Positions 9,830 to 27,931 of a DNA stretch of 64,000 nt are shown piece after piece (position 1 is the stretch's first letter; each line of letters starts with the position of its first letter). A program made the translations under genes and the position numbers. Under the pieces are notes generated by a model. The model was not told the origin of the DNA and did not search any database. It was given only the letters and a program-made list of their open reading frames with translations. This DNA comes from Neobacillus sp. PS3-40. Lineage in GTDB: Bacteria > Bacillota > Bacilli > Bacillales > Cytobacillaceae. Location: positions 4,158,001 to 4,222,000 of the forward strand of contig NZ_CP133266.1 of NCBI RefSeq assembly GCF_030915485.1. Direction: 5' to 3'.

Positions 9830-10143
9830 GATTGACAAAAACCCTTTACATATTGGAAAAGATTCTTAGTACAACTCCAAGAGGTACCGATGAATACGGT
9901 AGAGCAGAATATGAAAATGTCCCAATATATACAGCCTTTCAGGGTGAAGTAGAGCCATTTAGTAACCGATTAGCAGAAACTAATTATGGTTTATTTGTTG
10001 ATTGTACTAATCGTCTTTTCTGTGAGCCAAATGCAAAAATTAAAGTGAAATCACTAATTGAATATAATGGTCAAGAATTCGAAATTATCGAATGTATGGA
10101 ATATGACAATCATTCTGAAGTCCTTATGAAGAAGGTGACATGA
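9826..10143 (+). CDS. Head closure / head-tail joining protein (gp16-like)
   Basis: A 105-residue beta-rich protein in the head-closure position. The pattern (AFQGEVEPFSNRLAETNYGLFVDCTNRLFC, then IKVKSLIEYNGQEFEIIECM) matches small stopper proteins of SPP1 gp16 type, which close the connector after packaging. It overlaps both neighbours by 4 bases, showing a translationally coupled operon. Confidence 0.7.
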   Translation: MRLTKTLYILEKILSTTPRGTDEYGRAEYENVPIYTAFQGEVEPFSNRLAETNYGLFVDCTNRLFCEPNAKIKVKSLIEYNGQEFEIIECMEYDNHSEVLMKKVT

Positions 10144-10550: not shown

Positions 10551-10929
10551 ATCTATCCTTAATTATCTTTTATCAGATACAGAATTATTAAATTTAATTG
10601 CTTATACTGATCAAAATAAACGTATCAATCCCTATGAACCTTTTGATAAAGAAGATTATCCATACATTGTGTATGAGGTTTCCCCATTTTTAGCGAGCGA
10701 GGGAACAACTCAATATCGTTGTGATATTCGAGTAACCACTCAAAATGTATTGTTGTTGGAGTCTATATCAAATAGGCTTCTTTTTTTATTTCATAAGAAA
10801 AAAACAGGTGTGAAAATTAATGATACAACCATCTATTCATCAAAACATGCTGGTGGGAGTGGAATTGTTTTTTATCCTGATTTTAAAATTTTCGAACAAA
10901 CATTGACTTTTAATATAAAAGCAATTTAG
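10543..10929 (+). CDS. Tail terminator / minor tail protein (gp17-like)
   Basis: A 128-residue protein in the tail-terminator slot between gp10-like and major tail genes. It shows the family features: short N-terminal helix (ILNYLLSDTELLNLI), then YPYIVYEV and a C-terminal strand pair (FKIFEQTLTFNI). Tail terminators cap the tube after its length is reached. Divergent sequence; the assignment leans on position and size. Confidence 0.65.
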   Translation: MIKSILNYLLSDTELLNLIAYTDQNKRINPYEPFDKEDYPYIVYEVSPFLASEGTTQYRCDIRVTTQNVLLLESISNRLLFLFHKKKTGVKINDTTIYSSKHAGGSGIVFYPDFKIFEQTLTFNIKAI

Positions 10930-10948
10930 AAAGGGTGTTATTAATAAT

Positions 10949-11758
10949 ATGACAGTAGCAGAAGATAATTATTTGTTAGGTAGTGGAGATTTATATATTG
11001 GTGTAGTTTCACCAACAGCAACAGAGGAAGAAATTACAGCAGCAATCAAAAATGTGGGAGCAATTAGCGGAGGAGCAGTTCTATCTTATAAGCCAAGCTT
11101 CTATGAAATTAAAGCAGCCAATAGAGGGACAATTGCCAGCATGAAGACTGATGAGGAAGTTACTTTTAAAAGTGGAGTTTTGACTTGGAATCTAGAAAAC
11201 ATTGAAAAACTAAGTGCGGCTTATTATTCTGAAGATACAACTAATGGTACCAGACGTGTAGGAGTAGGTGGAATGAAGAATGTTCCAGTAAACTATCTTC
11301 GATTTGTACATACAAAACCGGATGGTCTTACATTAACGGTAAATGTATTTAAAGCACAAGCACAATCTGGTTTTGAATTAACATTCGATAAAGAAAAAGA
11401 AACTGTTATTGACGCAGAGTTTAAGGCACTTGCCGTAACAAACAAGAATGACGGTAACTTAGTAGAAATTATTGAGCAAGTAGGTGTCCAACCAATACCG
11501 ACAGTTTTAGCAATTAGTCCTACAACTATGACTGTAGCATCATTACCTGCAATGGTTAAAGTAACTGGTACTAACTTCAATCCTGATAGTATCGTTTTTG
11601 CTGAACAATTTGATGGTGCACATGACCTTAAAACTTTCTATGATAGTCCAACTACTTTGTATGCAGAAGTTAAGGGATTAAGTGCGTCTAGCTATTCTAT
11701 TAATGTTAAAAATGGAACTCAGGTTACAGCGACAAGTAAGAGTTTAGTAATTTCATAA
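10949..11758 (+). CDS. Major tail tube protein with C-terminal Ig-like (IPT/TIG) domain
   Basis: A 269-residue tube subunit. Residues 1-180 are the tube domain (LGSGDLYIGVV, then RTIGTIASMKTDEEV-like strands and EKETVIDAEFKAL). Residues 185-269 form an Ig-like IPT/TIG domain: PTVLAISPTTMTVASLPAM, VTGTNFNPDSIVF and SYSINVKNG. Such domains stick out of the tail shaft and are thought to bind surface sugars. ATG 10949 follows AAAGGGTG. A terminator-like hairpin follows the gene. Confidence 0.85.
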   Translation: MTVAEDNYLLGSGDLYIGVVSPTATEEEITAAIKNVGAISGGAVLSYKPSFYEIKAANRGTIASMKTDEEVTFKSGVLTWNLENIEKLSAAYYSEDTTNGTRRVGVGGMKNVPVNYLRFVHTKPDGLTLTVNVFKAQAQSGFELTFDKEKETVIDAEFKALAVTNKNDGNLVEIIEQVGVQPIPTVLAISPTTMTVASLPAMVKVTGTNFNPDSIVFAEQFDGAHDLKTFYDSPTTLYAEVKGLSASSYSINVKNGTQVTATSKSLVIS

Positions 11759-11763
11759 TTTGA

Positions 11764-11790
11764 AAAGGGAAGGTATATCCTTCCTTTTTA
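11764..11790 (+). terminator. Terminator or attenuator after the tail tube gene
   Basis: GGAAGG (with flanking A/T pairs) pairs with CCTTCC around TATAT and runs into TTTTTA. Confidence 0.65.
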
Positions 11791-11826
11791 TAATTTATCA
11801 GAAAAATATAATGAGGTGAAAAAATA

Positions 11827-12165
11827 ATGGCTGAAATTATTGATTTAGATTTATTAGTGTCCGAACCAATCTCGTTTAAAATTGCAGGGGAAATTTATGA
11901 AATTCCGTCTTCCCTTACGACTGAAACTGTAATCAACTTAATGAATGTTGAACAACAAATTAAAAAAACAAAGGATATAGAAAAAATTCTAGGTCTTCAA
12001 GATAAAATGGTACTCATATTGTTTTCTCAATTAAATGATGTTAATGAAAATTGGGTAAGTAAGTTAAGTCAAACTCAAAAGAGTGCTATTGTCCAACACT
12101 ATAAAACTCGTATGAATGAAATTAATTCAAACCCAAACTCCTCCTCCCTTCCCTCCCAAGAATAG
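11827..12165 (+). CDS. Tail assembly chaperone, short form (gpG-like)
   Basis: A 112-residue chaperone that in siphoviruses holds the tape measure before tube assembly. It has the compact helical pattern of Firmicute gpG proteins (MAEIIDLDLLVSEPISFKIAG, later NVEQQIKKTKDIEKILGLQ and SQTQKSAIVQHYKTRM) and ends in a Ser/Asn/Pro-rich linker. The frame ends at 12165, but an overlapping -1 frame continues to the tape measure gene, giving the usual G/GT pair. GAGGTGAAAAA precedes ATG 11827. Confidence 0.8.
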   Translation: MAEIIDLDLLVSEPISFKIAGEIYEIPSSLTTETVINLMNVEQQIKKTKDIEKILGLQDKMVLILFSQLNDVNENWVSKLSQTQKSAIVQHYKTRMNEINSNPNSSSLPSQE

Positions 12166-12437
12166 AACAAGGGAAGGGTGATTTTAAACAGGAAGATGTT
12201 CAAATATTACCAAATATCGCATATTTGAATAGAAAAACAGGCATGGGATTTGAGCAATTAATGAAATTGCCTTATCCCATTTTTTTATCTTTTTTAAAAG
12301 AAAATCGACTTATGGATTTAAGAGAATCAGAAGACGGGCGTGAGTATTTAGCAAAAATTGATCGTCTAAATGTAACTACTCCAGATTTCAGCAAATTAAG
12401 CAAGTTAAGTGGTTTTAAAAAGGCAGGTGAGAATTAA
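12126..12437 (+). CDS. Tail assembly chaperone extension (GT part, via -1 frameshift)
   Basis: A frame open from 12126 to 12437 without a well-placed start of its own near the beginning (first ATG at 12243). It overlaps the end of the gpG-like gene in the -1 frame, exactly where a GT extension is expected. The conserved part reads NRKTGMGFEQLMKLPYPIF and ends with KAGEN. The product is best read as a fusion to the upstream chaperone. Its TAA overlaps the ATG of the tape measure by one base. Confidence 0.75.
   Translation, partial: FKPKLLLPSLPRIEQGKGDFKQEDVQILPNIAYLNRKTGMGFEQLMKLPYPIFLSFLKENRLMDLRESEDGREYLAKIDRLNVTTPDFSKLSKLSGFKKAGEN
12129..12138 (+). promoter_or_regulatory. Tandem -1 frameshift slippery heptamers
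   Basis: AAACCCA (12129-12135) and CCCAAAC (12132-12138) both have the X XXY YYZ form and both lie in the correct phase of the upstream frame (A AAC CCA and C CCA AAC). A -1 slip joins the chaperone to the frame ending at 12437. A stop follows 24 bases later in the zero frame. Confidence 0.7.
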
Positions 12438-14701
12438 TGAGTGAAAGTGCATTTGATTTAGGCTCATATGGAGCTGACCTAGTGTTAGATTCCTCTCAGT
12501 TTGAAACAAGTATGTCTAACGCAGAGTCACAACTTACCAACCATGAAGGCAAAACAAAAGGATGGGCTAAGAACATCGGAATGATTGCAACAGGAGCCGT
12601 AGCAGGTTTAGGTGTGGCATTGGCAGGTGCAGCAGTTGCAGGAGTAAAGATGGCAGATGATTTAAATAAAGCATTAAATGGTTTGCAGGCTAGTACAGGA
12701 AGTACCGATGAAGAAATGAAAGGCATGGGAGATAGCCTTAAAAATATATACAATAACAATTTTGGAGAATCCTTTGATGATATTGCTCAGTCAATGGCAT
12801 TGGTTAAGCAAAATACAGGATTAGCTGGAAAAGAGTTAGAGAGTGCAACTCAGAATGCTTTAATGCTTAGAGATACCTTTGATATGGATGTAGCAGGTTC
12901 GACCAACGCAGCCAATTCAATGATGAAACAATTTGGTATATCTTCAAAGGAAGCATTCAATCTAATTGCCCAAGGTGCACAAAATGGAGCGAATAAAAAC
13001 GGAGATTTGATTGATTCTCTTAATGAATATTCTCCTCAATTTAAGGCGATGGGATTCTCAGCAGAACAGTTTACAAACGTATTAATTGACGGTGCTAAGA
13101 ATGGTCAATTCAGTATTGATAAAGTTGGCGATGCGATGAAGGAATTTAATATTCGTTCAAAGGATCTTTCTACTACTTCATTGGATGCTTTCAAATCCTT
13201 AGGGATGAATGGCGAAAAAATGTCTGCTAGTTTTGCAAAAGGTGGAGAGAGTGCTCAGAAATCATTTAATCAAGTAATGACCTCGTTAAATGGCATAAAA
13301 GATCCTGTGGAAAAGAATCGAATTGGAGTTGAACTATTCGGCACCCAATTTGAAGATTTGGAAGCGAAAGGGATTGCAGCTTTAGGGAATATTGGAAACA
13401 CTGCTTCATTATCCAAAGATGCTTTAGGTGAAATTAACAAAGTTAAATACAGCTCATTTGGCGACGCAATCGAAGGTATAAAAAGAAATCTCCTCACTGG
13501 TCTACTTGAACCGATGCAAAAAAATGTTCTTCCAATCCTTTCTGATTTTGCAAATTGGATTTCAGCACATATGCCACAAATAGAAGCTACAATTTCCACT
13601 GTCTTTAGTGCGATTGGTACTGTAATTGGAGGCTTTATTAGTGTAGTTAAGGGTATTATTTCAGTTTTTCAAGAAACTGATTCCTCGACAAATTCTTCCT
13701 TTTCAAAAGTTAGGGATACCATTTCCACAATCCTCGGAACAATAAAAGGTATTATTTTCGATATAACTTCAGCCATAAAAATACTTTGGCAAAAATATGG
13801 TGAGGACATCATGAAATATGCGAAAACAGCATGGGAAAATATATCAACAGTTATTTCAGGTGTGCTTCAAGTGATCCGTGGAATTGTTCAGGTTGTCACA
13901 GGATTGCTCACAGGAGATTGGGATAAAGCGTGGAAAGGAATAAAGAATATTGTTTTGGGTGTCCTTACAGCTATTAAGGGTTTATTAGACCAATACCTGA
14001 ATATGTATAAGGCTGTGGTAAATACAGTAATGACAGTTATTTCTAATATTTTCAAGACTATTTGGGAAGGCATTAAATCGACTGTTACGAAAGTTGCTTC
14101 GGATATTTATTCGGGTGTAAAGGGTAAATTTGAAACTTTGAGTTCATCTATATCTTCTATTTTCAGTAGCATTTGGTCTACAGCTAAGACTATTTTTGGG
14201 AAAATTAAGGATGCCATAACATCACCAATAGAGACAGCAAAAAGTACCGTTTTAGGTTTAATTGATAAAATTAAGGGAGCATTCAATTTTACCTGGTCTT
14301 TGCCTAAACTAAAACTTCCCCATGTTAGCGTTGATATGAAGAAGAATTCTCTAGGTATTCCATATCCTGACTTTGATATATCGTGGTATAAGACAGGTTC
14401 TTATTTTAACAAACCTTCAATTGTAGGTCTTGGTGAATCTGGCGGTGAGGTAATATTACCCGTGGAAAATGAAAATTATATGGCTCCGTTTGCTGACGCT
14501 GTTTATGATAGGCTGGCTACTAATTTATTAAAGCGTGCATCAAATAATAATGTCTCAGCTTCCACTCAAACCATTAATTTAAATCCTAATTTCAAGTTTG
14601 AAGTTACTGATAATAGTGGTTCATTTGATGCGAGAAAAATAACAAAAATGGTTACCGATGAAATGATGAATATGATGAAACCATACGGTTTTATTAGATA
14701 A
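12437..14701 (+). CDS. Tail tape measure protein
   Basis: A 754-residue tape measure that sets tail length. Residues 55-320 contain the TP901-type core (LVKQNTGLAGKELESATQNA, AANSMMKQFGISSKEAFNL, NEYSPQFKAMGFSAEQF). The middle has hydrophobic membrane-like helices (TVFSAIGTVIGGFISVVKGI and similar), and the C-terminus has the GLGESGGEVILPVENENYM motif. ATG 12437 overlaps the previous stop by one base. At about 1.5 Angstrom per residue the tail would be roughly 110 nm. Unusually, it is the last structural gene: a terminator follows instead of a Dit/Tal module. Confidence 0.9.
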   Translation: MSESAFDLGSYGADLVLDSSQFETSMSNAESQLTNHEGKTKGWAKNIGMIATGAVAGLGVALAGAAVAGVKMADDLNKALNGLQASTGSTDEEMKGMGDSLKNIYNNNFGESFDDIAQSMALVKQNTGLAGKELESATQNALMLRDTFDMDVAGSTNAANSMMKQFGISSKEAFNLIAQGAQNGANKNGDLIDSLNEYSPQFKAMGFSAEQFTNVLIDGAKNGQFSIDKVGDAMKEFNIRSKDLSTTSLDAFKSLGMNGEKMSASFAKGGESAQKSFNQVMTSLNGIKDPVEKNRIGVELFGTQFEDLEAKGIAALGNIGNTASLSKDALGEINKVKYSSFGDAIEGIKRNLLTGLLEPMQKNVLPILSDFANWISAHMPQIEATISTVFSAIGTVIGGFISVVKGIISVFQETDSSTNSSFSKVRDTISTILGTIKGIIFDITSAIKILWQKYGEDIMKYAKTAWENISTVISGVLQVIRGIVQVVTGLLTGDWDKAWKGIKNIVLGVLTAIKGLLDQYLNMYKAVVNTVMTVISNIFKTIWEGIKSTVTKVASDIYSGVKGKFETLSSSISSIFSSIWSTAKTIFGKIKDAITSPIETAKSTVLGLIDKIKGAFNFTWSLPKLKLPHVSVDMKKNSLGIPYPDFDISWYKTGSYFNKPSIVGLGESGGEVILPVENENYMAPFADAVYDRLATNLLKRASNNNVSASTQTINLNPNFKFEVTDNSGSFDARKITKMVTDEMMNMMKPYGFIR

Positions 14702-14714
14702 ATAAACAAATATA

Positions 14715-14772
14715 AGGCTAAAATCAATTGAATCCTAATGGGTTCGTGTTAATTGATTTTAGCCTTTTTTTT
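14715..14772 (+). terminator. Strong terminator ending the virion operon
   Basis: A 14-bp perfect stem (14715-14728 with 14751-14764) is followed by eight T. It closes the structural operon directly after the tape measure. Confidence 0.9.
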
Positions 14773-14869
14773 CATTTTAGGATGAATCGTAAGGGGATAG
14801 AATTCAAACGATTATTTCACGTTAATTTTACGTTTAAAATCAATTCTAATTATTAATTTAAGCTACTAT

Positions 14870-15022
14870 TTATTTAAACAATTTCCCCAAAAGCCTACCT
14901 GATAATTTACCAGCAATTCTTCTTTCTACTCTTTTACCAACTTTCCCTTTTTTGATTGCATTAACATCTCCTAAAATTTTTGCGGTTCCGTATAGTAAAC
15001 TTCTAAACTTATTTATGGACAT
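14870..15022 (-). CDS. Small highly basic protein (50 aa)
   Basis: On the minus strand, AGGAGG at 15031-15038 precedes ATG 15022 with good spacing. The product, MSINKFRSLLYGTAKILGDV followed by a Lys/Arg/Gly-rich half (KKGKVGKRVERRIAGKLSG), carries a strong positive charge. Short proteins with this DVNAIKKGKVGKR pattern are familiar to me from Bacillus mobile elements, without known function. Nucleic-acid or membrane binding is an inference from charge. It is the first minus-strand gene in the element. Confidence 0.7.
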   Translation of the reverse strand: MSINKFRSLLYGTAKILGDVNAIKKGKVGKRVERRIAGKLSGRLLGKLFK

Positions 15023-15160
15023 TTTGACAATCCTCCTTTATCCATTTATTGCTAATTATATCATGAAAAATTACAATTAAATGACTAATCCCAAAATTTA
15101 TACTTATTAGGAAATATATCCATTATACTAAAGTTAGATTTTGGGAGGAGGGAATACATA

Positions 15161-16270
15161 TTGAAAAAGTTTAGTGTTTTTGTTTTATCTATCATTTTAC
15201 TTCTAGGATTAATATTACCAGTTACCCCAGTTAATGCAGCTAGTAGTCCTTATTGTGATCAATATAAAGGTGTTAAGAAAATTTGGTGGAATGGAATGGA
15301 TCTAAGGTCTGGTCAAATAGGTAGATTGATCGTATTAAAAAATACCCCATTATATAAATTTTCCGGAACTGCAAAGGTTATTGCTCGGTATTTAAAGCCA
15401 GGTGAGTTTTATCGAATTTATGCTTTTAAACCTGGAAGTTTAAGTGTTGGTGGAGGATTGTTTGTAGATAGAGATTATGTGAAATATGAAACTCCGAGTA
15501 AGAACAAAATTGATGCTGTCAAATGTATTAATGGTACCTATTTAGAGAGTCCACCAGTTGTTGTGGTTCCTACGCCAACACCTAAAGAACCAAAGTATCC
15601 TGTAGATATAAAAACGCCTGAATTAAAAGACCTTTACGATAAAGTAATGAATTTAAACACGAAGGTTTCGTCAGGCAAATATAAAACATATTCTGAATTA
15701 TTTGATGAGTATCAAGAAATTGATAAGATTATAATGTCAGCCCCATATAATATACCTTCTGGTAGCATATTAATCCCTTTTTATAATGTAATGGATTTTA
15801 AATACAGAGTAAGGAATCCCAAAATTATTGTCACCTTTAGTAATAATGAAAAATTTATTTTAGATACGTTTCTTTCGACTATACGGTTCACCGACAATAA
15901 GTATTATTTTCAGTTTAACTATCTTGAACAAATTTATAAGATTTTATCAGATTCATACTATATTAATTATAATTCTAATTATCCAGCAGGCATTTTAGGG
16001 AATATTCACGGTAATGGTGCTGTTCCTACACAAAAAGTTTTTCTAAATCCTAGTGATATAAATTCTAAGTATTACTTTGAATATACTTTCCAGTTTAAAG
16101 ACAATAAAGATAAAAAAATTGTTAGTTACAGAGATAGGTACAGTGATTACCTATATCCACCAATAACAATTGAGGAACTTATTGATGGTTTAGGTGTAAA
16201 GGCAGAAGTTACTGTATCAGATACTAACATTTTTGAAATTAAATTATTGGATAAGTTACCAAATAAATAG
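15161..16270 (+). CDS. Secreted protein, unknown function
   Basis: A 369-residue exported protein. The N-terminus is a clear signal peptide (MKKFSVFVLSIILLLGLILP, cleavage likely after PVNAA). Residues 35-125 resemble an SH3-like beta domain with two Cys at either end (PYCDQY and AVKCING). A Pro/Thr/Val linker (PPVVVVPTPTPKEPKYP) leads to a C-terminal domain of about 220 residues that I do not recognise. TTG 15161 follows GGGAGGAGGG. It has its own transcription unit between two terminators. It could be a surface or exclusion factor carried as lysogenic-conversion cargo, but that is a guess. Confidence 0.7.
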   Translation: MKKFSVFVLSIILLLGLILPVTPVNAASSPYCDQYKGVKKIWWNGMDLRSGQIGRLIVLKNTPLYKFSGTAKVIARYLKPGEFYRIYAFKPGSLSVGGGLFVDRDYVKYETPSKNKIDAVKCINGTYLESPPVVVVPTPTPKEPKYPVDIKTPELKDLYDKVMNLNTKVSSGKYKTYSELFDEYQEIDKIIMSAPYNIPSGSILIPFYNVMDFKYRVRNPKIIVTFSNNEKFILDTFLSTIRFTDNKYYFQFNYLEQIYKILSDSYYINYNSNYPAGILGNIHGNGAVPTQKVFLNPSDINSKYYFEYTFQFKDNKDKKIVSYRDRYSDYLYPPITIEELIDGLGVKAEVTVSDTNIFEIKLLDKLPNK

Positions 16271-16290
16271 TATTAATCTATATTTTAAAA

Positions 16291-16322
16291 TAAAGCCCCT
16301 TCTCAATCGAGAGGGGCTTTAT
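16291..16322. terminator. Bidirectional terminator between convergent genes
   Basis: AAAGCCCCT pairs with AGGGGCTTT around TCTCAATCGAG. It serves the plus-strand secreted protein gene and overlaps the last codons of the minus-strand gene. Confidence 0.8.
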
Positions 16323-17129: not shown

Positions 17130-17396
17130 ATGCCGATTGTGAAACCTGCTTTATGTTTGAACACTGATGATCCTGAACAAAAAGAACTTTATGACTTCAT
17201 TACATTGTTGCCAAATGGGAAGAAACGGAATGCAAGTTCTTTTCTTCGAACACTTGTTGACCGTGAATATCAAAAGAGAAGGTTTGAATATTTAGCTGAA
17301 AAGGAAAAATTTATACAAGAAAAAAAGACGCAGGAAGCGTCTTCTGATGAAGTGATTAAATCAAACGGTGGTATTAAATATATACCTAAAAAATGA
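17130..17396 (+). CDS. Putative small DNA-binding protein (ribbon-helix-helix-like)
   Basis: An 88-residue basic protein, first gene of the rightward operon. Residues 30-50 (KKRNASSFLRTLVDREYQKR) resemble the second half of a ribbon-helix-helix domain, and the C-terminal part is a Lys/Glu helix. AAGGTGGTGAG precedes ATG 17130. In conjugative elements small RHH proteins often assist the relaxosome or regulate the operon, but no relaxase is visible in this window. The fold assignment is tentative. Confidence 0.55.
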   Translation: MPIVKPALCLNTDDPEQKELYDFITLLPNGKKRNASSFLRTLVDREYQKRRFEYLAEKEKFIQEKKTQEASSDEVIKSNGGIKYIPKK

Positions 17397-17397
17397 A

Positions 17398-17466
17398 TTA
17401 ACCAGCCAAAACATTCACCAAAATACCAATTGCCCCACCTATCATTGCTCCAATTAGAAATGTCAT
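17398..17466 (-). CDS. Tiny hydrophobic peptide (22 aa, DUF3789-like)
   Basis: On the minus strand, AGAGGTGA precedes ATG 17466 by about six bases and the frame codes for one hydrophobic, Gly-rich helix (MTFLIGAMIGGAIGILVNVL plus AG). Short single-helix peptides with this GAxIGGxIG pattern are common in Firmicute phages and conjugative elements. It is encoded opposite to both neighbours in the 150-base gap and ends two bases from the stop of the upstream gene. Confidence 0.45.
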   Translation of the reverse strand: MTFLIGAMIGGAIGILVNVLAG

Positions 17467-17547
17467 GAACAGTCACCTCTTTAAAAAGGATTTAGTTTTA
17501 TTTTTCCCTTTGATTTTAAAATTATTCAATTCGGAAGGAGTTACATC

Positions 17548-17919
17548 ATGAATACACAAACACTTGATTTTAAATCATTTGTACGAAATGAAAAATATCC
17601 GACTAAAGAATTATTAACATTATTAGAAGATAAAAATTTACTAAAAGTTGTTAAAGTGGGAGCAGGATTGATGTTGGTTTTAATTCCAAAAACCGCATTT
17701 GCAGCTACAAAAGCTACAGCAGATCAAACTTTTGGTGATATATGGGACGCAGTGATGAACATTGTTGATTGGATAGTGGTGGGAGTTTTAGTATTTGCAG
17801 GAGTTGCATGGATGTTTGGACATCGAACTAAGGCACTAGAATTATTGATTGGCGGAAGTGCAGGATATATTTTGGCTCGACACGCAATTGACATTCGAGA
17901 CTTTCTCAAAAAGTTATAG
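17548..17919 (+). CDS. VirB2/TrbC-like pilin candidate
   Basis: A 123-residue membrane protein. An unusually long N-terminus leads to a hydrophobic stretch ending in AFAA (residues 36-55), like a signal peptide with an AxA site. Two closely spaced helices follow (IVDWIVVGVLVFAGVAWMF and LELLIGGSAGYILARHAI), joined by a short basic turn (GHRTKA). This signal-plus-two-helix plan with a Gly-rich second helix is that of VirB2/TrbC pilins. The next genes encode a cell-wall peptidase and a large ATPase, which supports a secretion role. A holin is the main alternative. Confidence 0.6.
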   Translation: MNTQTLDFKSFVRNEKYPTKELLTLLEDKNLLKVVKVGAGLMLVLIPKTAFAATKATADQTFGDIWDAVMNIVDWIVVGVLVFAGVAWMFGHRTKALELLIGGSAGYILARHAIDIRDFLKKL

Positions 17920-17930
17920 GAGGTTTAAAG

Positions 17931-18071
17931 ATGGGAACTAAAACAATCATAATGCTTTGTTTAGTGGGTTATCGTCTTTATTCACATAGAAATAAACCGA
18001 TTAAGCCAGTTAATTTTAATGCATTCCTTCAGAAAGGAGGAAAAGTTCATGAAATTTCAATTATCAGGTGA
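17931..18071 (+). CDS. Small membrane peptide (46 aa)
   Basis: ATAGGAGG at the end of the pilin-like gene precedes ATG 17931. The product has a short hydrophobic start (TKTIIMLCLVGYRLY) and a basic remainder ending HEISIIR. Its 3' end overlaps the start of the M23 peptidase gene by 23 bases, so translation is probably coupled. No family is recognised. Confidence 0.5.
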   Translation: MGTKTIIMLCLVGYRLYSHRNKPIKPVNFNAFLQKGGKVHEISIIR

Positions 18072-18720
18072 ATATGGGGAATTAGCAGAGGTTCGAAATA
18101 ATATTCCTCATCATGGTTTGGATTTTGCAATGAGACAGGGAACTGAACTTCATAGCGTAATGAACGGAACTGTTGAAAAGGTTGTTAATTTTGGCACACA
18201 TGACTTGGGAAAAGGTGTCTTTGTTCGGAATGAGGACGGTACTTTATCAATATATGGGCATTTGTCTCAAATTAAAGTTAAGTTAGGTGAACATTTACAT
18301 GCAGGAGAGTCAATCGGATTAAGCGGAAATACAGGAAATTCAACAGGGGCACATTTGCACTATGGAATGAGAGATGCTAGTGGTCACTGGATTGATCCAA
18401 CTCCAATTGCAGATAAAGTTGCAAATATGCAGGGTAGCGGTTTTCATCCAGTTCAATTTTTAACTAATCAATGGAATCATTTGGGGGATAAAGTTATTGG
18501 TGCTGAAAAAGATTTTATATTTCATCCATTACAAGATTTTTTAAAGGATTCATTAATTTCTTTAGGTCATACACTAACAGACTTAATGCCAGAAATAGGT
18601 TGTGCTATCACTTTTGCATCAGCAATCGCAATTATGTTTACAGGTAACTTCCCAAAATTTATCACACGTTGGGGATTTGGAATGATGGGAGTGATATCAT
18701 GGATAATCTTAGGAAAATAG
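18049..18720 (+). CDS. M23-family peptidase with C-terminal membrane helices
   Basis: A 223-residue protein with an N-terminal M23/LytM metallopeptidase domain. Zinc ligands are visible: HHGLD (H22, D25) and HLH (102-104), with the second catalytic His in YGHLS (H71). Residues 175-223 form two membrane helices (IGCAITFASAIAIMFTG and WGFGMMGVISWIILG). There is no N-terminal signal peptide, so the topology is unusual. ATG 18049 follows AGAAAGGAGG. Conjugative systems use such peptidases to open the cell wall; as a phage enzyme it could act in lysis. It overlaps the ATPase gene. Confidence 0.85.
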   Translation: MKFQLSGEYGELAEVRNNIPHHGLDFAMRQGTELHSVMNGTVEKVVNFGTHDLGKGVFVRNEDGTLSIYGHLSQIKVKLGEHLHAGESIGLSGNTGNSTGAHLHYGMRDASGHWIDPTPIADKVANMQGSGFHPVQFLTNQWNHLGDKVIGAEKDFIFHPLQDFLKDSLISLGHTLTDLMPEIGCAITFASAIAIMFTGNFPKFITRWGFGMMGVISWIILGK

Positions 18721-21383
18721 AGTCCATTAAGCTATCGAAGTATTTCGCATATCAAAAAAATAAAATGATTACTTATCGAATAATCCCTCATATTTCCGTG
18801 ACTAATAATCAAAACTCAAAAATGTGGAGAGTCTTACACAAAATGTATGAAATTTACGATAAAATTCCTTCTAGGTTAAGTAGAAATGGATTTAAATTCA
18901 CATTTCGGGAAAAGGATTCTATATGGTTTGATGTGATATTTCGACAAGAAAATAATGAGAAAAAGATTGAATTTTATGTTAGCACATCTGAATTGTGGGG
19001 TAAAAAATTCAAAGAGATCCTCGAAAATTATATGAAGGTTACAATAGAAGAAGTTGAAACAAAAGCAATAGAAATTCCTGATAGTAAAAATACAGTCCTT
19101 CAAGAAATTCGCCTATCTCGACACGACATTTTCTCACTAGGAGTCAAAGCCTCAGAACAAACTACTCCAATAGCCTCTTTATTAACCGCACTAGATGATA
19201 TTTCAATGGATGGTGACTTTGCTCGTTTATCTATATATACTGAAACTTTTGACCGTAAAAAATGGGCACAGAATGGTCATTGGGCTCATGAAAAAATACA
19301 AAAGGGGAAAGTACCTGTTCGTGCCAGAATCACCCCTAGCAAGGTTCAAAAGGCTTTAAAAACAGGTATTTCCACAATTGCAAATGAAGTGTATGACGTT
19401 TTGAATGACATTATGGATGCAATCTCCAATACATTCTTCAAGAGTGAAAAAGGCTTTGAAAAGAAAAAGATTATTGATAAAAAACACGCATTAATTGAAG
19501 AATTAAATTCAAGTACAGTTACTCAAAAATCAACTGAAAAGTTAAATCAGCCTGTTTTCAAAACGTTTATTCGTGTAGCAGCCGTAACGGATAATAAATT
19601 AAGAGGGGATCTTATTGCTAATACCATAAGTAGTGCCTTTTCTGAAATAGCCGGTGATAATGAACTTTTACCATTTAAAATACGCTTGAAATCCCGTAAA
19701 CGTGAAGTAATAAATGAATTGAATACTTTACATTTATCTAAAAACACTAAAGCGGATGGTGATGTTTCATTATTAAGCTGTGATGAAATAGCAAAGGTAG
19801 CCATTCAAATGCCAACATCCATAATCCAGCAACGATATGAAAATGAATTAGCAGTAAATAAGAAAGTAGAAACGGATATTTCCCCAATTTTCATTCATAA
19901 AGAAAAGAAACCTGGTGTAAGAATCGGGGATATTATAATCAATATCGGTAGCAATAATATTAAATTTAATGACAAAATCTTAAAAATACATGAATTAAAA
20001 AGTAATAGCATTTTAGTTGGTCATTCGGAATTTAAAGGTAAGGAGTATCCTATTGGAATTCCATTAAGTAACCCTGAGGAAACATACAAAGGTTATGTAG
20101 CAACTGGTGGGATGGGTAGCGGTAAGGATACTTTTATTCAAAATTTCGTTACAGAGGCAGCGATAAATCACAATATTAGCTTCGTGGTGATTGATCAAGT
20201 AAATAAAGAAGGCTTACAGGGAATGGCAAATGGTATTCGTGACAGCCTTCCACCTGAAAAGGTCATAGATATCGACTTATCTGACGAAAACTATTTACCT
20301 CCATTAGACTTGACCGAGGTCATGGAAAAGTTAGGACGTAAAGGGGCAGACAGATTCGCTAACGAATTGATTGACTTCTTTCAAGATTTAGAAGGAATGG
20401 GTCAAAGTAGAAAAATATTAAGAACATTTGCTCAAGCATCAAATGGAAGTTTATACAATATAAAAAGGTTACTTGAAGAGGAGTCGTTTAGAAAAGAAAC
20501 AGCACAAAGGTTAAGGAACGAAGGTAAAAGGAGAGTTGCTGAAGAAATCGAAAAATTTATTAGCGAAAACGAATTAGTGGAAAAGAGAAATACAAAAGGG
20601 GAAGTTACTTCATCGGATTGGAAATGTACTAAGGATGGTCAAAAGTCATTAGACGGAAAAGCAAGTGCAATATTTAACCGTTTGGATGAGTTCATGGGTG
20701 ACTCAACATTATTTGAAATCTTTGCCCAACCGCCAAAAGCTGAAATGAATCTTGAACAATGGATGAGGGAGGGAAAAGTAATTATTTTCAGAGTACCAGA
20801 TAGAATATTGTCCACTGTTGCAGTCAGGACACTGGTTCATTGGATTACTTTAAAAGTTTTAATGACTCGAATGTTAATGACAGTAAAATCACAAGGGAAC
20901 GGAGCATTTATTATTTTTAATGAACCTCAAACGTATTTAAGCGAAAATAAAGGGCTTGCTAAGTTATTATCACGAATTGCAGTTCAGGGTAGAAAAGAGC
21001 GTTTAGGAAGTATCTTTGCGTGTCACCATTTAGGGCAAATTAAAGAGATTTCAGAGGACTTAATCAGTGGAGGGGTAAACTGGTTATTGTTTAAAAACGA
21101 CAACGAAAACACGTTTAAATCGCTTGAAACACAGTTGCAACCTATAACTGTTGAAACAGCTTTAAATATCCCTAATACGAAAACAACCAGACATGCAATT
21201 TGCATAATGAATTTCGGAGGAGAAAGAAAGCCTGCTTTCATGGTTAGAATGCTGAAACCGTCATATGAGCGATATAAACCATACGATAATTCATTCTTAA
21301 CCAAACGACATTCAAGATTGTTTGGAAGGCATTTTGATGAAATTGAAAAAATAATTGATGAACAGGAAATAAAGAGTGGCTGA
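18699..21383 (+). CDS. Large HerA/FtsK-superfamily ATPase (VirD4/VirB4-type DNA or protein pump)
   Basis: A protein of about 894 residues. The Walker A motif is GGMGSGKDTFIQ near residue 470, followed by FVVIDQVNKEGLQG, and a Walker B-like GAFIIFNEPQTYL near 733 with an Arg-rich stretch after it (VQGRKERLGSIFACHHLG), typical of VirD4/VirB4 pumps. The N-terminal 440 residues are a separate domain without a clear membrane helix. GGGAG 7 bases upstream fixes ATG 18699, inside the end of the peptidase gene. Together with the peptidase and the pilin-like protein it looks like the core of an export machine; other type IV secretion subunits were not found here. Confidence 0.8.
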   Translation: MDNLRKIESIKLSKYFAYQKNKMITYRIIPHISVTNNQNSKMWRVLHKMYEIYDKIPSRLSRNGFKFTFREKDSIWFDVIFRQENNEKKIEFYVSTSELWGKKFKEILENYMKVTIEEVETKAIEIPDSKNTVLQEIRLSRHDIFSLGVKASEQTTPIASLLTALDDISMDGDFARLSIYTETFDRKKWAQNGHWAHEKIQKGKVPVRARITPSKVQKALKTGISTIANEVYDVLNDIMDAISNTFFKSEKGFEKKKIIDKKHALIEELNSSTVTQKSTEKLNQPVFKTFIRVAAVTDNKLRGDLIANTISSAFSEIAGDNELLPFKIRLKSRKREVINELNTLHLSKNTKADGDVSLLSCDEIAKVAIQMPTSIIQQRYENELAVNKKVETDISPIFIHKEKKPGVRIGDIIINIGSNNIKFNDKILKIHELKSNSILVGHSEFKGKEYPIGIPLSNPEETYKGYVATGGMGSGKDTFIQNFVTEAAINHNISFVVIDQVNKEGLQGMANGIRDSLPPEKVIDIDLSDENYLPPLDLTEVMEKLGRKGADRFANELIDFFQDLEGMGQSRKILRTFAQASNGSLYNIKRLLEEESFRKETAQRLRNEGKRRVAEEIEKFISENELVEKRNTKGEVTSSDWKCTKDGQKSLDGKASAIFNRLDEFMGDSTLFEIFAQPPKAEMNLEQWMREGKVIIFRVPDRILSTVAVRTLVHWITLKVLMTRMLMTVKSQGNGAFIIFNEPQTYLSENKGLAKLLSRIAVQGRKERLGSIFACHHLGQIKEISEDLISGGVNWLLFKNDNENTFKSLETQLQPITVETALNIPNTKTTRHAICIMNFGGERKPAFMVRMLKPSYERYKPYDNSFLTKRHSRLFGRHFDEIEKIIDEQEIKSG

Positions 21384-21405
21384 AATTAGTCGCTCTTTAT
21401 TTGTT
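21367..21405 (+). terminator. Terminator, copy 1 of a repeated type
   Basis: AAATAAAGAG pairs with CTCTTTATTT around TGGCTGAAATTAGTCG. The same AGAGTGGCTGA..GTCxCTCTTT core recurs at 21.83 and 23.06 kb. Confidence 0.75.
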
Positions 21406-21822: not shown

Positions 21823-21824
21823 TA

Positions 21825-21868
21825 CAAATTGAAAGAGTGGCTGAGAAGTCGCTCTTTCAATTTGTTTA
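21825..21868 (+). terminator. Terminator, copy 2 of a repeated type
   Basis: A 13-bp perfect stem (21825-21837 with 21852-21864) around TGGCTGAGAAGTCG, followed by TTTATATA. Confidence 0.75.
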
Positions 21869-22235: not shown

Positions 22236-22269
22236 AATAAGAAAGATTAAGGTTATGAGGTTGGTCACA

Positions 22270-22455
22270 TTGAATGAAAAAATAACTCTAGATGTTAAAG
22301 ATATTATGAAATTAACGGGGATTGGAAGAGACAGTGCCTACGATTTAATGAAAAGCGGAGAATTTGCAGTTAAAACAATTGGTAAGAAATATTTAGTCCA
22401 TAAAGAAGTATTTGAAATCTGGTTAAAGGGAGAAAAAGGTAAAAAAAGATGGTAA
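22270..22455 (+). CDS. Excisionase-like helix-turn-helix protein, copy 1
   Basis: About 61 residues, a MerR/Xis-type winged HTH: LDVKDIMKLTGIGRDSAYDL, then MKSGEFAVKTIGKKYLVHKEVFEIWLKG. Proteins of this form act as excisionases or small regulators and bind near recombinase sites. I prefer TTG 22270 (GAGGT at proper distance; aligns with the second copy) to ATG 22255. It lies 0.7 kb upstream of the serine recombinase, so a role as its directionality factor is plausible. Confidence 0.7.
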   Translation: MNEKITLDVKDIMKLTGIGRDSAYDLMKSGEFAVKTIGKKYLVHKEVFEIWLKGEKGKKRW

Positions 22456-22601: not shown

Positions 22602-22645
22602 AAATTTGTATGTTATTAAATAGAATTTTGGAGGCAACTTTAGGT

Positions 22646-22837
22646 GTGACTACTGAAAAAAAAGTTATGTTAAACGTTAATGACGTAATGGATATGATGG
22701 GAATTTGCAGACAAAAAGCATATGAGATTTTTAATTGTGGAGAGTTTCATGTAGTAAAAACTGGTAGGAAATATATGGTTCATAAAGAAGTGTTTGATGC
22801 ATGGTTAAAGGGAGAAAAAGTAAAAAAAAGATGGTAA
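22646..22837 (+). CDS. Excisionase-like helix-turn-helix protein, copy 2
   Basis: About 63 residues, a clear paralogue of copy 1: LNVNDVMDMMGICRQKAYEI, then CGEFHVVKTGRKYMVHKEVFDAWLKGEK, and the same KKRW end. The start is taken as GTG 22646 because it aligns with the start of copy 1 and lies 11 bases after GGAGG. Two diverged copies may give opposite actions on the recombinase, or one may be a regulator of transcription. Confidence 0.7.
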   Translation: MTTEKKVMLNVNDVMDMMGICRQKAYEIFNCGEFHVVKTGRKYMVHKEVFDAWLKGEKVKKRW

Positions 22838-23047: not shown

Positions 23048-23055
23048 ATGAGATG

Positions 23056-23087
23056 AAGAGTGGCTGAAATTGGTCACTCTTTTTTTG
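23056..23087 (+). terminator. Terminator, copy 3 of a repeated type
   Basis: AAGAGTG pairs with CACTCTT around GCTGAAATTGGT and runs into TTTTTTT. Same core as the two upstream copies. Confidence 0.75.
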
Positions 23088-23174
23088 ACTAAATTTTACC
23101 TATTATACTTGTCTAAACAATGATAATGTCATACAATTAATATAATAACAGTTTTCAGTGTAAGAGGTGTGATA

Positions 23175-24971
23175 ATGGATAAAGTAAAAGTCGCAGCATA
23201 TTGTCGTGTCAGTACCAACAGTAAAGATCAAACTCATAGTTTTGAGGCTCAAAAAGAATATTTTGAGGAAATAGCAAAAAAAAGTGAAAAGTATGATTTA
23301 GTTCAAATTTATGCTGACAAAGGATTAAGTGGAGTTAGTTTCAAAAAAAGGGATCAATTTCTACAAATGATCCATGATGCAGGTATAGACGTAGTTAAAG
23401 GGGTAAAAAGTTATGAATTTTTGACTGACAATGGACGAGAGCCAAAGTTTTCTAAAATTCTTATAAAGGACATCTCAAGGTTCTCCAGGAACATGACTAT
23501 AATTCCGTTGTATAGAGCTTTAATTGAAAAAAATGTTTCACTAGAATTAACGAACATGGGGCAAGAATTTAAGTCTGAATCCGATGAATTTAACTTAAAT
23601 ATGCTTTTAAATTTTGCCCAAATGGAGTCAGTGGATCGCAGCAAAAAAATTAGATGGGGATTAAATGAATCTGCGAAAAAGGGTATTGTAAAAATGGCAC
23701 AACCATTATACGGATATCATTATGATCCAGAGACAAAAGAGGTCAGCATTGTTGAAGAAGAAGCTAGAACAGTAAAGTTAATATTTGATATGTATGTCAA
23801 TCAAAACCTTGGTGTTAGAAGAATCAATAAATATTTTGAAGCGAATAATTTTAAAACGAGAGATGGAAATAATTTTGGCTATTCAACGCTACAAAGAATG
23901 ATAACAAATCAAAAATATTGTGGTGACTTAATATACCTTAAATACGATTCTGGAACTGTTTTGAATAAAAATTCCACTTATAAAGTAAGACCAGAAGAAG
24001 AGTGGGAAATTCATTATGACAAAATACCTGCAATTATTTCGAGAGAGATATTTGAAAAGGCACAAGAATTAAGAAAAGCTAGACAAACCTCACTCAGAGG
24101 CAAAAAGAATGCCCATACAGAATACTCCAAGTTATTAGTTTGTGGGAATTGTGGGGCTTACTATGGGCGAAATAAAGCCAATGGGAAATACTTGATGAAT
24201 TGTATGACCAAAAAAAGATTCGGTGTAAAAAGATGTGATTATCCCAATATAAAAGTTGAGGATTTAGATGATTTTATCAATACCTTATATGAAGGCAACT
24301 TTTACAACTATATAGTATCAATGAAGAATTTAAAAGTTGATAAATTATTGAAACTTAAAGAGGAGTTAATTAGTAAAAAACATGCAGAAACTCCGGCAGA
24401 ATATTATTTGAAAAAAGAAGAATTGGTAAAAACACAAGAACAAAAACAAAAACTTCTTGATTTATACTTAGATGGTAATTTTGAAAAACAAACTTTGGAC
24501 TCGAAAGCTGAGGAAATAAATAATAAAATTTCCACTCTTGAAATAGAATTAAAAAATTTATCATTGCCTGTTGAAGAAATTGAAAAACAAACAAAGGAAA
24601 TTGATAAAAGGGTTGAAGAACTTGAAGAAATGCAGGTTAAAAAGAATCTGACTAAAGTAGATATCATCAATATGATTGATAGAATAGATATTGAACATTT
24701 TTTGGATCAAATAAATTTAGATGTTCATTTTAAAATTAACGAAACAATTAATAAGGTTTTAAATAAATTGAAGCCTAATGAAGATTTAAGCGAAATGCTT
24801 GAAGTGCCGTTTTGCTTTTCTGTTCCAGCCGGAAATAATGTACCCGTAAGAGTTCCTAAAAATGTAGTGGTTACAGAAGGAACAGATTTAAGAAAATTTG
24901 TAAAAGAGTACCATAAATCTATAAATAAACTCGCAGAAACAGTGAAGGAATATTTTGAAAATAAACATTGA
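23175..24971 (+). CDS. Large serine recombinase (element integrase)
   Basis: A protein of 598 residues that integrates and excises DNA between short att sites. The N-terminal resolvase domain holds the nucleophile S13 in AAYCRVSTNSKDQ, and DISRFSRN with the helix-E region EFNLNMLLNFAQMESVDRS. A recombinase domain follows (GYHYDPETKEVSIVEEEA), then a zinc ribbon (CGNCGAYYGR with later Cys residues) and a coiled-coil region (residues 390-490). ATG 23175 follows AGAGGTG. It is the last gene of the element, and attR begins within a few bases of its stop, as in SPbeta-type elements. Confidence 0.93.
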   Translation: MDKVKVAAYCRVSTNSKDQTHSFEAQKEYFEEIAKKSEKYDLVQIYADKGLSGVSFKKRDQFLQMIHDAGIDVVKGVKSYEFLTDNGREPKFSKILIKDISRFSRNMTIIPLYRALIEKNVSLELTNMGQEFKSESDEFNLNMLLNFAQMESVDRSKKIRWGLNESAKKGIVKMAQPLYGYHYDPETKEVSIVEEEARTVKLIFDMYVNQNLGVRRINKYFEANNFKTRDGNNFGYSTLQRMITNQKYCGDLIYLKYDSGTVLNKNSTYKVRPEEEWEIHYDKIPAIISREIFEKAQELRKARQTSLRGKKNAHTEYSKLLVCGNCGAYYGRNKANGKYLMNCMTKKRFGVKRCDYPNIKVEDLDDFINTLYEGNFYNYIVSMKNLKVDKLLKLKEELISKKHAETPAEYYLKKEELVKTQEQKQKLLDLYLDGNFEKQTLDSKAEEINNKISTLEIELKNLSLPVEEIEKQTKEIDKRVEELEEMQVKKNLTKVDIINMIDRIDIEHFLDQINLDVHFKINETINKVLNKLKPNEDLSEMLEVPFCFSVPAGNNVPVRVPKNVVVTEGTDLRKFVKEYHKSINKLAETVKEYFENKH

Positions 24972-25658: not shown

Positions 25659-26360
25659 TTAATCATTACTTAATCTTAACTCCCACATATTCCCGTTTCT
25701 CCAGTACCTTCTTTCGCGATTAAAGACTTGAGTTCTAACCCTTCGTCTAGAAGACCGTCTGCTTGAAGAGCGCCTACGGGAAGAACGCCGTCTAGAAGAC
25801 CGTCTACTTGAAGAGCGCCGCCGAGAAGATCGTCTGCTTGAAGAGCGCCTACTGGAGGACCGCCGCCGAGAAGACTGTCTGCTTGAAGAGCGCCTACTGG
25901 AGGACCGCCGTCTAGAAGACCGTCTACTTGAAGAGCGCCTACTGGAGGACCGCCGTCTAGAAGATCGTCTGCTTGAAGAGCGCCTACTAGAGGAGCATCG
26001 CCTAGAAGATCGTCTGCTTGAAGAGCGCCTACTGGAGGAGCACCGCCTAGAAGATCGTCTGCTTGAAGAGCGCCTACTAGAGGACCGCCTACTAGAGGAC
26101 CGCCGCCTAGAAGAACAACGAGTAGTTGAGCGCTGTCTAGAAGTTCTGCGTCTTGATGTTTGCCGTCTAGAAGTACGACGAGTAGTTGAACGCTGTTTAG
26201 AAGAGCGCCGTCTAGAAGTACGACGAGTAGTTGACCGTCTGCTAGAAGAACTCCGATTTAATGATCCTAACCCTGGATCGCGAAACATAAAATCACCAAA
26301 ACCAGCTGTTTTCACTTCTTCAACAGCATTTTGAATATCTTTTTGGGAATATTTCCCCAT
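25659..26360 (-). CDS. cotG: CotG-like Ser/Arg-repeat spore coat protein
   Basis: A 233-residue protein. Residues 1-40 are a normal N-terminus (MGKYSQKDIQNAVEEVKTAG). Residues 45-210 are almost only Ser and Arg in RRSSSRRSS-type tandem repeats, with a few Thr in the first units; a short ordinary tail follows. GGAGG nine bases upstream sets ATG 26360. It is divergent from cotH, as cotG is in B. subtilis. CotG there is a repeat-rich outer-coat protein whose serines are phosphorylated by CotH; here the repeats use Arg instead of Lys/His. The call rests on layout and composition, not on sequence identity. Confidence 0.75.
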   Translation of the reverse strand: MGKYSQKDIQNAVEEVKTAGFGDFMFRDPGLGSLNRSSSSRRSTTRRTSRRRSSKQRSTTRRTSRRQTSRRRTSRQRSTTRCSSRRRSSSRRSSSRRSSSRRSSRRCSSSRRSSSRRSSRRCSSSRRSSSRRSSRRRSSSRRSSSRRSSRRRSSSRRSSSRQSSRRRSSSRRSSSRRSSRRRSSSRRSSRRRSSRRRSSSRRSSRRRVRTQVFNRERRYWRNGNMWELRLSND

Positions 26361-26553
26361 TTCAATAAACCTCCTTTACTTACTTTAGGAATGAAAATGA
26401 CCAGTTGGATTTATTTTCTATCACTCCATTACCTACTATTACTTTATTCAAAATCGTCCACTTGGCATGGGTGAAAGGCATAATTTATCGAAAAGAAAAT
26501 TTTAAAAACGTGTTATCCATTTTTCCATTCCCAAACAACATAATGTTGCAATA

Positions 26554-26581
26554 CACCATTTAATAGGAAGATTCATATAAT
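26554..26581 (+). promoter_or_regulatory. Candidate sigma-K promoter of cotH
   Basis: AC, 17 bases, CATATAATT, close to the late-sporulation consensus AC-N16/17-CATANNNTA (last base differs). It lies 131 bases before cotH in the cotG-cotH divergent gap of 351 bases, which holds no gene. Confidence 0.45.
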
Positions 26582-26711
26582 TTAAGGTATTAAACTAATA
26601 GGATAAGGCAGCTTAAGTTGAAATTTATTTTTTTACCATGAATATGTTGATTAATTTCACCAATCATCCACAACTGTTTTTTTCTAAAATCAGCAGAAGG
26701 GAGCATTAGAA

Positions 26712-27803
26712 ATGGCTGAAAATAATAAACTAGAAACCCTTCAACTATATATACATCCCAATAATCTTAGAGAACTAAAAAGTGATATTTGGTGTGAAGA
26801 TCCTGTCCCTGCCCAATTAAAAATATCAGGGAAAAAATTAGAGGTTGATGTAAATTATCGGGGATCACACATTAGAAATTATCGAAAAAAATCTTACGAA
26901 ATATCATTCTTCAAACCAACTAAATATAAAGGTTCAAAAATTATTCATTTAAACGCAGAATATAGGGACCCTTCATTACTCAGAAATAAACTCTCATTTG
27001 ATTTTTTCTCGGAAATAGGAAATCTTTCTCCATACTCTAGGCATGTGCTTCTGAATTTAAACGGAAAAACAGAAGGGGTTTACCTTGAAATTGAATCTGT
27101 TGATGAACAATTTATTGAGCGAAGAAAGCTCCCTAATGGTGCTATTTTTTATGCAGTGGATGGAGATGCAAACTTTTCATTAATAAGTGACCTTGACAAA
27201 GAAACCAAAAAATCACTTGAACTGGGGTATGAAAGGAAATATGGTACAGCGAATGATGATATCTTTTTGCAGGAGCTGATATTTAAAATAAATACGATAC
27301 CTAGAGCTGACTTTGAAAAGGAAATTCCCAACTATCTAAATGTAGAGCAGTATTTTCGTTGGATGGCGGGGGTGATTCTAACCCAAAATTATGATGGTTT
27401 TGTTCATAACTATTCTTTGTACAGAAATAGTGTGACAAGGCAATTCGAAATAATTCCCTGGGATTATGATGCAACATGGGGTCGGGATGTTAATGGAAAA
27501 GTAATGGAGGAAAACTATGTTCCAATCCAAGGATACAATACACTTACAGCACGTCTATTGGATGTAGCTAATTTCCGAAAGATATACAAGGAATTGCTCT
27601 GTAAGATTATGGATCATCAATTTACCGTCGAGTATATGCAGCCAAAGATAGAAAGTATGCATCAATTAGTAAGACCCTATGTCCTTTTAGATCCCTATAA
27701 AAAGGAGAAAATCGATCAGTTTGATATAGAGCCAAGTAATATTTGCTCATTTATTGAGAGTAGAAAACGTTTTTTGAAAGGATCGTTATATAAATTAGAT
27801 TAA
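26712..27803 (+). CDS. cotH: Spore coat protein kinase CotH
   Basis: A 363-residue atypical kinase that phosphorylates serines of CotB and CotG during coat assembly. Family blocks are in order: VDVNYRGSHIRNYRKKSYEI (phosphate-binding region), NLNGKTEGVYLEIESVDEQF, and the catalytic/metal part QNYDGFVHNYSLYRN with IPWDYDATWGRD. ATG 26712 follows GAAGGGAG. It lies between divergent cotG and co-directional cotB, its two expected substrates, the same gene neighbourhood as in B. subtilis. No frame damage. Confidence 0.93.
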   Translation: MAENNKLETLQLYIHPNNLRELKSDIWCEDPVPAQLKISGKKLEVDVNYRGSHIRNYRKKSYEISFFKPTKYKGSKIIHLNAEYRDPSLLRNKLSFDFFSEIGNLSPYSRHVLLNLNGKTEGVYLEIESVDEQFIERRKLPNGAIFYAVDGDANFSLISDLDKETKKSLELGYERKYGTANDDIFLQELIFKINTIPRADFEKEIPNYLNVEQYFRWMAGVILTQNYDGFVHNYSLYRNSVTRQFEIIPWDYDATWGRDVNGKVMEENYVPIQGYNTLTARLLDVANFRKIYKELLCKIMDHQFTVEYMQPKIESMHQLVRPYVLLDPYKKEKIDQFDIEPSNICSFIESRKRFLKGSLYKLD

Positions 27804-27931
27804 TAATGGAGTAGGCAATAGCTGAATTTTAAATAATTAGGCATTTAACCTAGGTCAGTGTCCATACGAGATACGTATATATGCATTATAGATCACCATT
27901 AAATGGAAGAAGAGAGTAGGAGGATAAAAAG

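Follow-up and report, generated by a model that had tools for sequence, protein, structure and literature searches.

In phage SPP1, genes 31, 31.1, 31.2 and 32 lie in an early-expressed, non-core region of the genome (PMC6316719). The 2018 SPP1 genome paper likened only the carboxyl terminus of gp32 to TrwB, VirB4 and FtsK (HHpred), proposed a trans-membrane translocon of gp32 with gp31.1 and/or gp31.2 in which no pilin was named, and reported that lytic growth does not require gene 32 (PMC6316719). In Tyroviruses (Thrax phages and Tsamsa) the gp11–gp18 block, extending from ParM to Replic_Relax, has been interpreted as plasmid-derived (PMC9703825), and FtsK/SpoIIIE-type proteins of Bacillus phages have been noted with the genomes of Grass (PMC3853049) and Bc431v3 (PMC3601020). 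The entry of phage genomes into spores has been debated since the 1960s (cited in PMC9429907), and spore entrapment and phage sporulation genes have been discussed (PMC9429907, PMC10294663). Here we analyse a four-gene cassette at positions 17130–21383 of a 64,000-nucleotide stretch of the Neobacillus sp. PS3-40 genome (contig NZ_CP133266.1, 4,158,001 to 4,222,000; this whole stretch is referred to as the window). Very probably it is a type IV secretion-like module in reduced form, carried by phages. What is new compared to prior work is the assignment of VirB4 and VirB2, the fusion with an M23 peptidase, the breadth of distribution and the near-restriction to endospore-forming hosts.

The window cassette has the same gene order as SPP1 (gp31, 31.1, 31.2, 32) and GBK2 (gp29–32), with homologous proteins throughout and ATPases approximately 48–50% identical; SPP1 was represented by a 44,010-base IMG/VR contig matching it (L090), with an ATPase of 836 amino acids. 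The window copy differs from both in the fusion of an M23 domain to the gp31.2-type membrane protein and in its location within a prophage. All four genes are co-directional on the + strand and have good ribosome-binding sites; their likely starts (17130, 17548, 18049 and 18699) were set by Shine-Dalgarno-like sequences. They encode an 88-amino-acid ribbon-helix-helix (RHH)-like protein (17130–17396; gp31 equivalent, recognised with a profile built from relatives), a 123-amino-acid pilin-like protein (17548–17919; gp31.1 equivalent), a 223-amino-acid M23 endopeptidase with a two-helix membrane tail (18049–18720; the tail being the gp31.2 equivalent), and an 894-amino-acid ATPase (18699–21383; gp32 equivalent). 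For the M23 gene, position 18049 is the most likely start, given an aaaggagga Shine-Dalgarno sequence and the family N-terminus MKF; for the ATPase gene it is the ATG at 18699 (gggagtga), while the TTG at 18669 is disfavoured. An earlier note on this DNA had described the last three open reading frames as overlapping or nearly touching. All three exist where it placed them, and the gene at 17130–17396 belongs to the same set; the M23 and ATPase genes do overlap, by 22 nt, whereas the pilin and M23 genes are separated by 129 nt.

The large protein contains Walker A (GGMGSGKDT, amino acids 470–478) and Walker B (FIIFNEP, amino acids 737–743) motifs. It has no match in Pfam and corresponds to phrog_5156 among PHROGs (E-value 4.4e-202). 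Its relatives touch the TrwB, TraG-D_C and HerA models of Pfam, and a profile made of 16 family members matches HerA in PDB at 1.7e-8. When the full ATPase was modelled with AlphaFold2 from 27 sequences (predicted local distance difference test, pLDDT, 76.6), the top Foldseek matches of the predicted structure were to R388 TrwK/VirB4 over the whole length (E-value 3.5e-11). For the motor domain, VIA returned Thermoanaerobacter VirB4 (4ag5) with Z 24.8, TrwB with 23.4 and HerA with 23.1, the fold being common to FtsK/SpoIIIE, HerA and VirD4 ATPases (Z 17–24). Since the motors of DndH, TrwB and HerA come almost as close as that of VirB4, this domain alone is not decisive. The N-terminal domain (18720–19883, + strand), which the earlier note had put at 440 residues, left unassigned and marked for structure prediction, was folded by itself (pLDDT 71.7, predicted template-modelling score 0.70). 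All 13 of its Foldseek matches at E ≤ 0.001 were to R388 TrwK/VirB4, and VIA aligned it with TrwK/VirB4 at Z 16.1 over 246 residues (3.9 Å). The best non-VirB4 match in VIA was an ESX-3 component (Z 10.3), and folds outside type IV and ESX secretion systems stayed below Z 7. Strong matches of the domain are to VirB4 only; other proteins were unlisted, which does not exclude the N-terminal parts of FtsK/SpoIIIE, HerA or VirD4. Because the N-terminal domain by itself matches TrwK/VirB4 well above other folds, we assign the large protein, on its predicted structure, as a VirB4-type ATPase in both its N-terminal and motor domains.

The protein encoded at 17548–17919 matched PF04956 (TrbC/VirB2) at an E-value of 2.9e-6, scoring 27.8 bits where the cut-off is 27.9. 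A TrbC match at E ≤ 0.01 was found for 15 of the 27 pilin family members, and the F-pilin TraA is matched at 0.0037. The window protein consists of a polar N-terminal tail of about 33 amino acids, a signal-peptide-like segment and a two-helix mature part, and its sequence pattern indicates a signal-peptidase-type site, A50-F-A52/A53. The polar tail, the hydrophobic segment and two hydrophobic helices are kept in the family alignment. Counts of gene order and associated features cover 41 loci with readable upstream DNA; a cleavage pattern of the P-x(2-5)-AxA type is present in 29 of them, and a pilin profile match lies upstream of the ATPase in all 41. Judged by these sequence features, the small protein is a putative VirB2/TrbC-like pilin with a cleavable-signal pattern. 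The N-termini of the pilin (17548) and the ATPase (18699), and of their relatives, often have a common motif, TETI-(F/W)-(D/E)F(M/F). A pilin-trained matrix finds the N-tail of about half of the ATPases, and in two loci (L099 and L093) both tails have switched to another motif. The pairing test was weak (matched 21.3, permuted 19.6, P-value 0.027; shuffled 17.9) and serves as a lead only; the motif is possibly a docking signal.

The middle protein was correctly described before as having an N-terminal M23 domain (PF01551, 2.4e-24), C-terminal membrane helices and no signal peptide; its HxxxD and HxH motifs are intact. A profile of the two-helix tail matches it at 8e-21. The corresponding gene of SPP1 and GBK2, likewise placed between those of the pilin and the ATPase, codes for a membrane protein of 108–120 amino acids without M23. 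The M23 domain precedes the membrane tail in 16 of the 41 loci, including the window, and is absent from the other 25, so that the topology described before as unusual is in fact a recurrent one. In nearly all M23-bearing loci, HxxxD and HxH are intact according to a simple pattern search. The middle protein is thus predicted to be a two-helix membrane protein with an N-terminal M23 wall hydrolase domain.

The RHH-like protein is encoded directly upstream of the pilin in 39 of the 41 loci. As it has no match of its own in Pfam or PDB, its designation rests on the sequence pattern and on the ParG-like call made in Tyroviruses (PMC9703825); given its ParR/ParG-like position, the 88-amino-acid protein is a probable DNA tether. 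In D6E, BboS-125 and SPO1 such a protein comes after a ParM/Alp actin gene. ParM/Alp genes lie upstream of the cassette in SPO1, D6E and vB_BcoS-136, and Replic_Relax lies downstream in SPO1 (2.9e-12) and vB_BcoS-136 (1.8e-9). The SPO1 genes concerned are gp27.9 (ParM/Alp), gp27.4 (ATPase) and gp27.3 (Replic_Relax), while vB_BcoS-136 carries ParM, the RHH-like protein, an M23 protein adjoining the ATPase, Replic_Relax and a recombinase. Both ParM and Replic_Relax are absent from most of the cassettes examined. The Tyrovirus block resembles the window cassette in its ParG-like RHH protein and T4SS (type IV secretion system)-like ATPase, and differs from it in having ParM and Replic_Relax in addition and in having been read as plasmid maintenance (PMC9703825); vB_BcoS-136, with its M23 protein, is related to these phages.

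Searches of phage records with four ATPase queries returned 59, 52, 68 and 53 records (overlapping sets), and further ATPase-family loci were found in IMG/VR (35), in genomes (6) and on one plasmid; a viral contig scan with the single window protein as query gave no match. The order RHH-like protein, pilin, two-helix protein, ATPase recurs in about 40 loci. Compared with the nearest relative, the ratio of nonsynonymous to synonymous substitution rates (dN/dS) is 0.03–0.10 for the ATPase, M23 and pilin genes, indicating strongly purifying selection, with dS near saturation; this speaks for the family as a whole and not for the window copy in particular. Recurrent order together with strongly purifying substitution makes the cassette more than a chance arrangement. 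The module is spread over unrelated phages (SPP1-, SPO1-, TP-84-, D6E- and Slash-like phages and phage G), and in SPO1, TP-84, phage G and others the ATPase has divergent surroundings. In phage G, the family ATPase stands beside a VirB6-type TrbL_4 protein (1.8e-11) and a TraG/VirB4 P-loop protein (1.6e-15), and gp150 scores above the cut-off for T4SS_pilin (PF18895). The gp150–gp156 region of this phage (L108, 957–7322) holds a near-set of T4SS parts, including a small protein in the VirB3/PrgI position. Goe3 (Bastillevirinae) likewise has M23 and small membrane proteins beside an ATPase of the DNA-pump class, in the order ParM, RHH-like protein, M23, membrane proteins; its motor differs in being a true FtsK/SpoIIIE (PF01580, 1.9e-50), a DNA pump, and not VirB4-like. 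The 99,745-base plasmid of Alicyclobacillus dauci (L013 / G416:C3) bears two equally scoring ATPase copies, one of them adjoining M23.

The carriers are nearly all phages of endospore formers. The phages are named for Bacillus, Geobacillus, Lysinibacillus, Alicyclobacillus, Terrisporobacter and Brevibacillus; outside named spore-former hosts we found the deep-sea thermophilic phage D6E, for which no host is given, and the Microcystis phage MaeS. The host label of MaeS is doubtful, since its ATPase is 54–65% identical (65% to Stills) to those of Slash-like phages of B. megaterium, which like MaeS have a size of 80 kb. A SleB-type hydrolase of MaeS was considered as a sign of a spore-forming host and dropped, its Pfam match being Hydrolase_2, a family that to our knowledge is not confined to spore formers. 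A primase common to SPO1-type phages marks over 400 relatives of these from other hosts: by phage record, Staphylococcus accounts for 329, Listeria for 55, Enterococcus for 32 and Lactobacillus for 24. None of them appears in the ATPase tallies by organism. Among 398 Bacilli genomes 66 were ATPase-positive, the weaker matches covering the motor domain only and thus possibly including other HerA-type ATPases; SpoIVA was present in 66 of 66 positives versus 266 of 398 genomes overall (hypergeometric test, P-values 1e-13 by genome and 2e-4 by genera). In vB_BpsM-61 a Spo0E-like sporulation regulator (PF09388, 8e-16; L110, 4996–5139) is encoded two genes after the ATPase.

Taken together, the best explanation as a whole is a reduced type-IV-like device that passes phage DNA across an envelope or septum, to which we give about an even chance. 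A VirB4-type hexamer at the membrane would pull the pilin out of the bilayer to form a short pilus or channel, and the M23 domain would open the wall peptidoglycan there. The leading small protein, joined by a ParM-type actin where the phage has one, would bring phage DNA to the device, which would then pass it across an envelope or septum that need not be crossed in lytic growth. With hosts almost all endospore formers, the likeliest barrier would be the sporulation septum or the sister-cell wall. Delivery into the forespore or a sister cell best explains both the host range and the dispensability for lytic growth, although the cargo itself we only infer: DNA is somewhat more probable than protein, and the forespore or sister cell can be named as target only tentatively. 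The most specific form of the proposal, in which a dedicated reduced VirB2–VirB4 machine moves phage DNA across the sporulation septum (yielding virospores) or into a chain neighbour, and a T4SS-like system thus serves a virus and not a plasmid, is rather unlikely. The module, being spread over unrelated phages nearly all of endospore formers, nevertheless offers a concrete candidate for the entry of phage genomes into spores that is testable in SPP1 and B. subtilis. If true, it would indicate the extent to which a type IV apparatus can be pared down. The module also lends a likely identity to phrog_5156 and phrog_5422, which are at present classed as unknown.

Several points weigh against this reading. 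The likeness to VirB/VirD4 systems extends to the VirB4 N-terminal and motor folds, the VirB2/TrbC-like pilin and the wall hydrolase. It ends at VirB6 and VirD4, for which neither PF04610 (TrbL) nor PF02534 has a match in the whole genome, the latter result being that of a profile check proposed earlier; a complete conjugation operon is rejected on these two profiles. Of the type IV parts that the earlier note had not seen, VirB4 is now found, as a predicted fold, and VirB6 again has no match. No VirB8-like protein was recognised, no dedicated profile search having been run, and the same applies to a relaxase among the proteins scanned by general profiles. With VirB6 and VirD4 not found and no VirB8 recognised, a complete channel is not accounted for. 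Moreover, the role of VirB4 in known systems is pilus building, and it does not serve as the receptor for DNA. The gene order would suit a VirB3/PrgI position for the two-helix protein, yet its tail matches neither family, so that profiles do not support this identity, and its helices lie at the opposite end. The pilin falls 0.1 bit below the Pfam cut-off and matches VirB2 in PDB at an E-value of only 3, and the M23 domain, which lacks an export signal, may face either side of the membrane. As to the hosts, relatedness of hosts and phages confounds the association (genus-level 2e-4, genome-level 1e-13), and the use of a profile built from Bacillus phages weakens the figures. At the phylum level the comparison is uninformative and without power (SpoIVA in 9 of 10 positives versus 340 of 398), the single SpoIVA-negative positive there (G611) being a degenerate fragment.

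An unlikely alternative is that the cassette is a relic of a conjugative plasmid, kept for a plasmid-like, extrachromosomal prophage state, with segregation and maintenance genes captured together with T4SS pieces. Such an origin would fit the presence of ParM, RHH and Replic_Relax genes near the ATPase of several phages, the copy-bearing 99.7-kb plasmid of A. dauci and the same proposal for the Tyrovirus block (PMC9703825). However, the cassette is found in strictly lytic phages (SPP1, SPO1, phage G) and in an integrating serine-integrase prophage, and since most cassettes are without ParM and Replic_Relax, maintenance fails to explain the constant core of pilin, two-helix protein and ATPase. 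VirB4-type motors also serve protein-secreting T4SSs, and a device without DNA cargo that exports protein or acts on the envelope (to exclude superinfection or to secrete a phage effector) would agree with the early-expressed, non-core SPP1 region (PMC6316719). This we consider distinctly improbable, because no candidate effector gene is constantly linked, DNA segregation genes lie nearby and the Goe3 equivalent uses FtsK/SpoIIIE.

Instead, the VirB4-type ATPase could assemble the pilin into a surface fibre or a virion-associated structure that aids adhesion or entry: mass spectrometry of purified TP-84 particles detected TP84_47 (PMC5889276), which matches the pilin family profile at 3e-18. 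Yet this gene of TP-84 is not part of the structural cluster and membranes may have contaminated the virion preparation, while the SPP1 genes are early and no structural role of gp31.1 is known, which leaves a fibre very improbable. Finally, a lysis cassette with the pilin as holin and M23 as endolysin, suggested by a small two-helix membrane protein beside a peptidoglycan hydrolase, is rejected as extremely improbable: the pilin has no holin match in Pfam or PHROGs, relatives of the cassette lie separately from the holin/endolysin pairs annotated in their phages, M23 is confined to a minority of loci, a VirB4 motor is unneeded for lysis and SPP1 gene 32 is dispensable (PMC6316719). Thus, of the 'minimal export or lysis device' put forward in the earlier note, lysis is unsupported, and export agrees with what is found: the motor has the VirB4 fold, the pilin is VirB2-like, a wall hydrolase is present and the genome has no match to VirD4 or VirB6. 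An anti-phage defence system was also rejected; PADLOC gave no match for pilin, peptidase or ATPase, and HerA-type defence ATPases share the motor fold only.

At the left end of the window, where a conjugation operon would have refuted the reading of the earlier note, the genes are instead those of a phage, for replication, packaging, head and tail. A primase gene is situated at the left, and profile matches (PHROG and other) at 2355–14701 (+ strand) cover packaging, head, neck and tape-measure functions, with genes for the two terminase subunits (small and large), portal, minor head, scaffold, major head, connector, major tail-like and tape-measure proteins. Between the tape-measure gene and a large serine integrase (23169–24971, + strand; PF07508/PF00239, phrog_95 at 4e-87), no distal tail, receptor-binding, fibre, holin or endolysin gene was recognised, including at 14702–16300. 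For this reason the prophage is probably defective and, as it seems to have lost its tail-tip and lysis genes, the window copy of the cassette may be dormant. A 191-amino-acid tyrosine-integrase fragment (2954–3529; phrog_216, 1.4e-59) lies between the two terminase genes, in addition to the serine integrase, and two tandem paralogous excisionase-like HTH_17 genes (22255–22455 and 22610–22837) precede the latter. The prophage region also has a tRNA-like gene at 101–182, to which ARAGORN assigns a four-base anticodon (tgcc) and which Rfam also calls as tRNA. A hairpin search revealed a terminator-like hairpin of 16 pairs at the cassette end (21367–21402, + strand). It has a common core, GAGTGGCTGA...GTC(G/A)CTCTTT, with two others at 21824–21865 and 23055–23082, and this small repeated family of three copies flanks the cassette and integrase region. 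Just past the integrase (25659–29744) are cspA (Rfam) and spore-coat-like genes, which from their sequence appear CotG-like (with a Ser/Arg-rich repeat), CotH-like and CotB-like.

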